The position numbers were made by a program, and so were the translations under genes. Below, piece after piece: positions 869 through 1,069 of a DNA stretch of 33,468 nucleotides (position 1 is its first letter; each line of letters opens with the position of its first letter). Source of the stretch: a virus. Under the pieces are notes generated by a model. The model ran no database searches and was not told the DNA's origin. It saw nothing but the letters and a program-made list of their open reading frames with translations. The stretch is taken from the IMG/VR virus record IMGVR_UViG_3300046328_000237, positions 1-33,468 of that record. One strand, written 5' to 3'.

Positions 869-921
869 AAAAGAAGCCTCCCTAACTTCCCATTTCTGGG
901 GTCGTACAAGTTAGAGGAGGC
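869..921 (-). terminator. Long stem-loop with U-tract: attenuator candidate upstream of the initiator
   Basis: Arms 876-888 and 908-921 form 13 pairs with a single bulged base (A915). An inner CCCA/TGGG stem (889-892 / 897-900) closes a TTTC loop, leaving a seven-base bulge at 901-907. Read on the minus strand the stem is followed at once by TTCTTTT, as in an intrinsic terminator, and lies about 15 bases before the SD and ATG of the replication initiator. Acting as an attenuator is an inference; pairing is directly visible. Confidence 0.6.
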
Positions 922-973
922 GTATGGCGCTATGGCCGACTAAAGTAAATCTATGTTAAGGTACGACCCTTAA
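876..973 (-). ncRNA. Structured leader with loop-bulge (kissing) complementarity
   Basis: A second hairpin, TTAAGG (956-961) with CCTTAA (968-973), exposes a six-base loop TACGAC (962-967). That loop is exactly complementary to GTCGTA (901-906), the bulge of the 13-bp stem-loop at 876-921; the match extends to seven bases if G961 is freed. On the minus strand the order is small hairpin, large hairpin, U-tract, SD, initiator ATG. This looks like a leader RNA whose tertiary contact could stabilise or disrupt the terminator-like stem. A double-stranded DNA role (origin) is the main alternative. Confidence 0.5.
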
Positions 974-986
974 GTATTCAGAAAAT

Positions 987-995
987 AATTTACCA
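987..995 (-). promoter_or_regulatory. Candidate extended -10 promoter for the replication initiator
   Basis: On the minus strand TGG is followed by TAAATT, an extended -10-like element; a -35 is poor. The predicted start, about seven bases downstream near 980, would begin the transcript just before the 973-956 hairpin, giving a leader of about 125 bases that contains both stem-loops. Weak as a motif alone; supported by position. Confidence 0.35.
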
Positions 996-1069
996 GAGCT
1001 TAATTCTCGCTTAAGATATCTGTAAAGATTACTTTAATGCTGAAAGAAAATATTAGAAATTGCTTTTAC

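Follow-up and report, generated by a model that had tools for sequence, protein, structure and literature searches.

The question raised by this locus is what two hairpins with complementary loops do directly in front of a phage replication initiator gene. The window, as we call the whole stretch of DNA analysed here, is a 33.5-kb virus record (33,468 nt, IMGVR_UViG_3300046328_000237) that probably derives from a tailed phage, judging from its terminase, major head, tape-measure and tail fibre genes. The initiator is encoded on the minus strand at 14-853, comprises 279 residues and is of the Phg_2220_C / DnaD-like type (Pfam PF09524, 4.6e-14; PHROG replication initiation and DnaD-like helicase loader). 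Its linker contains a tandem repeat coding for KDKDKD at about 414-470. From 1110 onwards divergent genes are found, namely a small ORF, ERF, SSB and an exonuclease-like gene. The small ORF (1110-1307), which is the first gene of this divergent recombination operon, has CxxC and CxC motifs and no family match. A nucleotide search with the first 6 kb of the window gave no match to annotated phages, and the ERF relatives, which were checked for a syntenic close relative of the window, yielded matches of 42-44% identity only.

The leader element in the window

Read from 5' to 3' on the minus strand, to which all positions in this paragraph refer, the leader consists of an extended -10 sequence, a 5' hairpin (SL1), a 34-nt linker, a terminator hairpin, TTCTTTT, GGGGGG, and the ATG of the initiator. 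SL1 (956-973), evident from both the sequence and the fold, has a stem of 5 bp, TTAAG[GGTCGTAC]CTTAA, and contains the putative kissing segment X, GGGTCGTAC (961-969), which is an exact 9-nt complement of 899-907. The latter positions form the segment X', GTACGACCC, which was recovered together with 961-969 in an inverted-repeat search. X' starts the 19-nt loop of a large-loop intrinsic terminator (876-921) that was predicted by folding and by a terminator scan and has a 13-bp stem with one bulge and the arms GCCTCCTCTAACTT and AAGTTAGGGAGGC; X' lies directly against the 5' arm. The U-tract TTCTTTT (869-875), the SD-like GGGGGG (858-863) and the ATG (853) follow, with 22 nt between the end of the terminator and the ATG. 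Both the two hairpins with loop complementarity and the succession of U-tract, SD-like sequence and start codon had been described in an earlier note on this DNA, and sequence reading and folding bear them out. The same note had placed the complementarity in a seven-base bulge. The minimum-free-energy fold indeed shows a bulge, GUACGAC, beside a small inner hairpin, but the complement comprises nine nucleotides and not seven.

The promoter-like site that had been proposed just before the first hairpin is less clear. An extended -10 sequence is present (TGGTAAATT, 987-995, minus strand) and would predict an RNA start at about 978-981, but the -35 sequence is weak (TTAAGC, 1009-1014, minus strand) and a sigma-70 scan did not include 987-995 among its listed sites. 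Given this weak -35, TGGTAAATT is no more than a plausible leader promoter. A promoter-like pair is also found upstream of the 5' hairpin in several relatives. On the minus strand, TTAAGC occurs as direct repeats 11 bp apart (998-1003 and 1009-1014, the latter being the weak -35-like sequence), a possible operator. In a consensus scan of positions 1-1500 of the window, which is a weak test, no plus-strand promoter-like (antisense) sites were listed.

Taken by position, a predicted intrinsic terminator sits between the promoter-like site and the first gene on the same strand, as in an attenuator, and its loop has a 9-nt upstream complement where a kissing leader requires at least 7 nt. It is the only large-loop terminator in the 33-kb window, both strands of which were scanned. 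The fold energy of the minus strand is mildly better than that of shuffled sequences (z = -1.75), and the energy by itself is therefore insufficient to make the case. Rfam gave zero matches for the leader element at gathering and at permissive thresholds, and a limited literature search found no described equivalent of a kissing-loop terminator leader, both of which agree with the earlier impression that no named element has such a design.

Recurrence of the architecture

The relatives of the initiator provide a first comparison. Around relatives of its N-terminal region 299 viral loci were collected, corresponding to 166 non-redundant upstream regions including that of the window. Strong terminators at most 60 nt from the initiator start are present in 24 of the 166 regions and in none of the shuffled controls, and many of these 24 have loops of 17-66 nt. 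When both strands of the complete collected DNA (1.42 Mb) were scanned blind, 26 non-redundant large-loop terminators turned up immediately ahead of an ORF with an ATG start. A complement of at least 7 nt between the loop and the upstream sequence is found in 16 of these 26, against 2.7 expected from shuffled upstream sequence, with the window counted among the 26 and some of them belonging to one sequence family, so that the independent positives number roughly 13 to 14. At 8 nt the corresponding numbers are eight of 26 against 0.6. The remaining ten pre-ATG terminators lack a 7-nt kiss. Large-loop candidates elsewhere than before an ATG are near background (33 against 23.6). In most cases about 5-27 nt separate the terminator end from the start codon, and the U-tract is on the strand of the gene.

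The structure in the window thus belongs to a recurring design. The closest initiator (L001, 57% identity) is encoded without such a leader, no such leader was found adjoining the initiator start at two further loci (L002, L003), and in the Pseudanabaena phage Pan5, which alone among isolates has a related initiator N-terminus, there is no comparable element. Long tandem CTGGCT repeats coding for RSRSWS lie beside related initiators, upstream in L001 and downstream in L204. The L309 group has the promoter-like arrangement TTGACT-N16-GATAAT, whose spacer, TCTCGTTCGAGCGAGA, is palindromic and might bind a repressor of the leader promoter.

Covariation and controlled genes in a homologous leader family

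Viral contigs were searched in two DNA-pattern scans, which recovered a family of homologous leaders; 20 of these were aligned. The structure that was scored comprises SL1, the terminator and an inner hairpin, with the kissing pair added in pseudoknot notation. Across the 20 rows 99.4% of the alignment cells pair, compared to 35-43% in slid controls, and changes on both sides are seen in 17 of the 31 pairs against 8.7 in shuffles. In the kissing helix both sides changed in four of seven pairs while 99.3% of the cells are paired. The alignment contains six variants of X/X' (GTAAGAA/TTCTTAC, GTAGAAA/TTTCTAC, GTGAAAC/GTTTCAC, GTGATAA/TTATCAC, GTGAAAA/TTTTCAC, and GTGAAAG/CTTTCAC), and the related leaders L179 and L073 provide two more, CTGAGAAA/TTTCTCAG and GTGGAAA/TTTCCAC. 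One leader (L303, 9678-9790) combines the X GTAAGAA with the X' TTTTCAC of a different variant at the cost of one mismatch, and is perhaps a recombinant. Columns 57 and 100 of the terminator stem read UG in 18 of the 20 rows; G-U pairs kept in this way indicate that the element acts as RNA and not as DNA.

We regard the class, with high confidence, as a true RNA element that belongs to phage replication operons. The earlier proposal of an attenuator with a tertiary contact is supported in so far as the architecture recurs before phage replication genes and the contact covaries in a family sharing it. The covariation does not come from homologues of the window sequence itself, for which none was found, and the aligned family, which is not homologous in sequence to the window leader, shows the architecture to be a biological element. 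The membership of the window in the class therefore rests on shared design, position and statistics, and it is with moderate confidence that its copy is expected to act in the same way.

The homologous leader comes from metagenomic viral contigs, where it stands in front of replication operons that between them have at least five different initiator families. The downstream genes encode KRFTET-type initiators, a DUF1376-like primosomal protein, an O-like initiator, an HTH initiator, and members of two further PHROG replication-initiation families. A DnaB-like helicase comes next in several of these operons; elsewhere the first gene is an HNH gene, a helicase-like gene or a short ORF, with an initiator or initiator-like gene behind it. 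Thus, the leader goes with the front of the replication operon and not with one gene family, which suggests that the leader rather than the initiator is the conserved control point. Two of the elements were looked for in an annotated phage collection and were absent.

Leader reading frames and a model of attenuation

A feature that the earlier note had not mentioned is a short leader ORF, which most relatives have and the window does not. In the homologous family an ATG is located 1-10 nt past SL1 and opens an ORF through the terminator loop in all 17 distinct linkers, against 7.1 expected. In many cases the ORF stops at the TGA of an ATGA that it shares with the next gene, or only a few bases from it; in other members the stop codon lies in the 3' arm. 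A transcript terminated at a U-tract preceding the stop of the leader ORF would have no stop codon. Most of the genes after the family leaders lack an SD sequence. Over the whole set of 26 terminators the excess of leader ORFs is modest (16 against 9.1), and the window, L309, L280 and a number of others have none. The leader of the window does not contain an ATG or GTG start; a frame is open up to the TAATG at the initiator, its starts being just ATA, or TTG at the loop edge. A conserved leader peptide was considered and ruled out, since the frame in which the RNA is read differs between homologous members and the peptide can thus not be what is conserved.

We propose, with a probability of roughly 0.6, that the window leader acts as a transcription attenuator in which a kissing hairpin at the 5' end locks the terminator. 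RNA polymerase would start just upstream of SL1, which would fold earliest and expose X. As soon as the terminator has been transcribed, pairing of X with the X' of its large loop would lock the terminator fold, a leader RNA of about 110 nt would be released, and the initiator would be expressed from read-through transcripts only. X' abuts the terminator arm, which allows stacking, and the pairing is through the loop and not the stem. Because the kiss is compatible with the terminator stem, we infer that it stabilises the terminated state; it may also have the opposite sign and act as an antiterminator. The start and end of the transcript, the direction in which the kiss acts and the ribosome as release signal are all deduced from the architecture, and we have low confidence in the exact regulatory logic.

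The release by ribosomes would apply to the members with leader ORFs; the window has a possible SD of its own and no leader ORF starting with ATG. In the SD-less members the leader ORF begins no more than a few tens of bases beyond X, or overlaps it, and crosses the terminator. If a ribosome loads before X' is synthesised, neither kiss nor terminator would form, and the ribosome would go on to re-initiate at the replication gene, whose start codon overlaps the leader ORF. Conversely, a formed kiss would cover the leader start region, so that the terminated RNA, lacking a stop codon in many members, would remain untranslated. Since SL1 lies within the ribosome footprint of the leader start in these members, ribosome loading and kiss should exclude each other. 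Early loading of the ribosome would thus lead to read-through and coupled expression, and late loading to termination and a closed RNA.

Alternative explanations

The terminated leader could be mainly trans-acting: the X and X' of a released RNA would pair with those leaders of the same phage that are still being transcribed, and would set the termination frequency in the manner of the P4 CI RNA. In P4 the replication genes are indeed controlled by premature termination via a leader-derived RNA (PMC4825925), and the X/X' pairs diversify between close relatives while the flanks are unchanged, which would suit specificity. However, pairing in cis accounts equally well for the covariation, one 9-nt pair was found and no third complementary copy noticed, and a lysogenic role is unlikely, given that the window proteins scanned gave no integrase or repressor match, that the element pattern did not occur in a collection covering 84,980 bacterial and archaeal species with one genome each, and that related initiators are nearly absent from this collection. 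We therefore consider a mainly trans-acting leader unlikely.

A compact structured RNA with a promoter-like sequence and a terminator might also be an independent small RNA gene that by chance ends beside a replication gene, and the same RNA is found before different genes. It is hard to reconcile such a gene with a short distance between terminator and start codon that holds across unrelated genes, with downstream genes that are consistently at the heads of replication operons, with leader ORFs that in the homologous family overlap or abut the gene start, and with an interval between terminator and gene that is too short to hold a promoter of its own. An independent small RNA is for these reasons quite improbable.

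For the window alone it might be argued that its terminator is an ordinary one with a chance complement, given that the window sequence has no homologue and that a 7-nt complement is found in 34 of 144 random large-loop terminators of shuffled DNA, about a quarter. A complement of at least 9 nt between the loop and about 180 nt of upstream sequence, as present here, occurs in only 0.3% of dinucleotide shuffles, and position, distance and context of the window element fit the class, which makes a coincidence very unlikely. That the inverted repeats are a DNA element such as a replication origin, as their place beside the initiator gene could suggest, is hardly credible in view of the G-U pairs kept in the terminator stem, the U-tract on the strand of the gene, and the leader ORFs. 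A self-cleaving ribozyme had been considered for its pseudoknot and was rejected, as there is no Rfam ribozyme match and the contact sequences are not conserved.

Significance and comparison with known systems

The presence of this design in unrelated phages, with base changes that compensate each other, points to an undescribed RNA switch on phage replication operons, which would be an unnamed switch on the decision of a phage to begin DNA replication. It would be recognisable by its architecture and not by its sequence, and would thus have been missed by family searches. The model predicts that compensatory loop swaps restore the contact, that a terminated RNA of about 110 nt exists, and that terminated leaders lack a stop codon. 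It is quite doubtful that the class is widespread and its kissing pair also acts in trans, so that a released leader recognises nascent leaders sharing its X/X' code. If this were true, related phages in one cell would regulate, or fail to regulate, each other's replication according to a code of 7-9 bases that diversifies.

Premature termination in the leader of phage replication genes (PMC4825925) is shared with the CI RNA and seqA-seqC of the satellite phage P4 and with the prophage RNA IsrK, which differ in having a trans-acting processed RNA, three complementary segments, and lysogeny. That ribosomes suppress terminators within leader ORFs is established for the Escherichia coli pyrBI operon, whose pyrL leader resembles the leader-ORF members in that an intrinsic terminator is located inside the leader ORF and the closeness of ribosome and RNA polymerase is controlling (PMC4824070, PMC5021804). 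However, pyrBI serves pyrimidine synthesis, and a kissing partner is not described in these two papers. A leader ORF across the terminator, as in pyrBI, is found in the 17 of 17 distinct family linkers and not in the window.

In pT181 and pIP501 an attenuator in the leader also controls the replication initiator, driven by an antisense RNA whose pairing competes with a terminator arm. These are initiator-leader attenuators like the one proposed here, but here the pairing is with the loop and compatible with the stem. In the IncI and IncL/M plasmids (ColIb-P9 repY-repZ) the initiator is controlled via a 5' stem-loop that pairs with a downstream hairpin, together with a coupled leader ORF; an antisense RNA acts on translation, and the downstream hairpin is not a terminator. 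The likeness is thus a loop contact controlling an initiator, and the difference lies in the plasmid setting, the translational level and the antisense RNA. Both the pseudoknot and the kissing complex of this type of plasmid control are named in PMC10724649. While a demonstrated member of none of these systems, the unit in the window would work like an attenuator that is reminiscent of pyrBI, the ColIb-P9-type plasmids, and P4.
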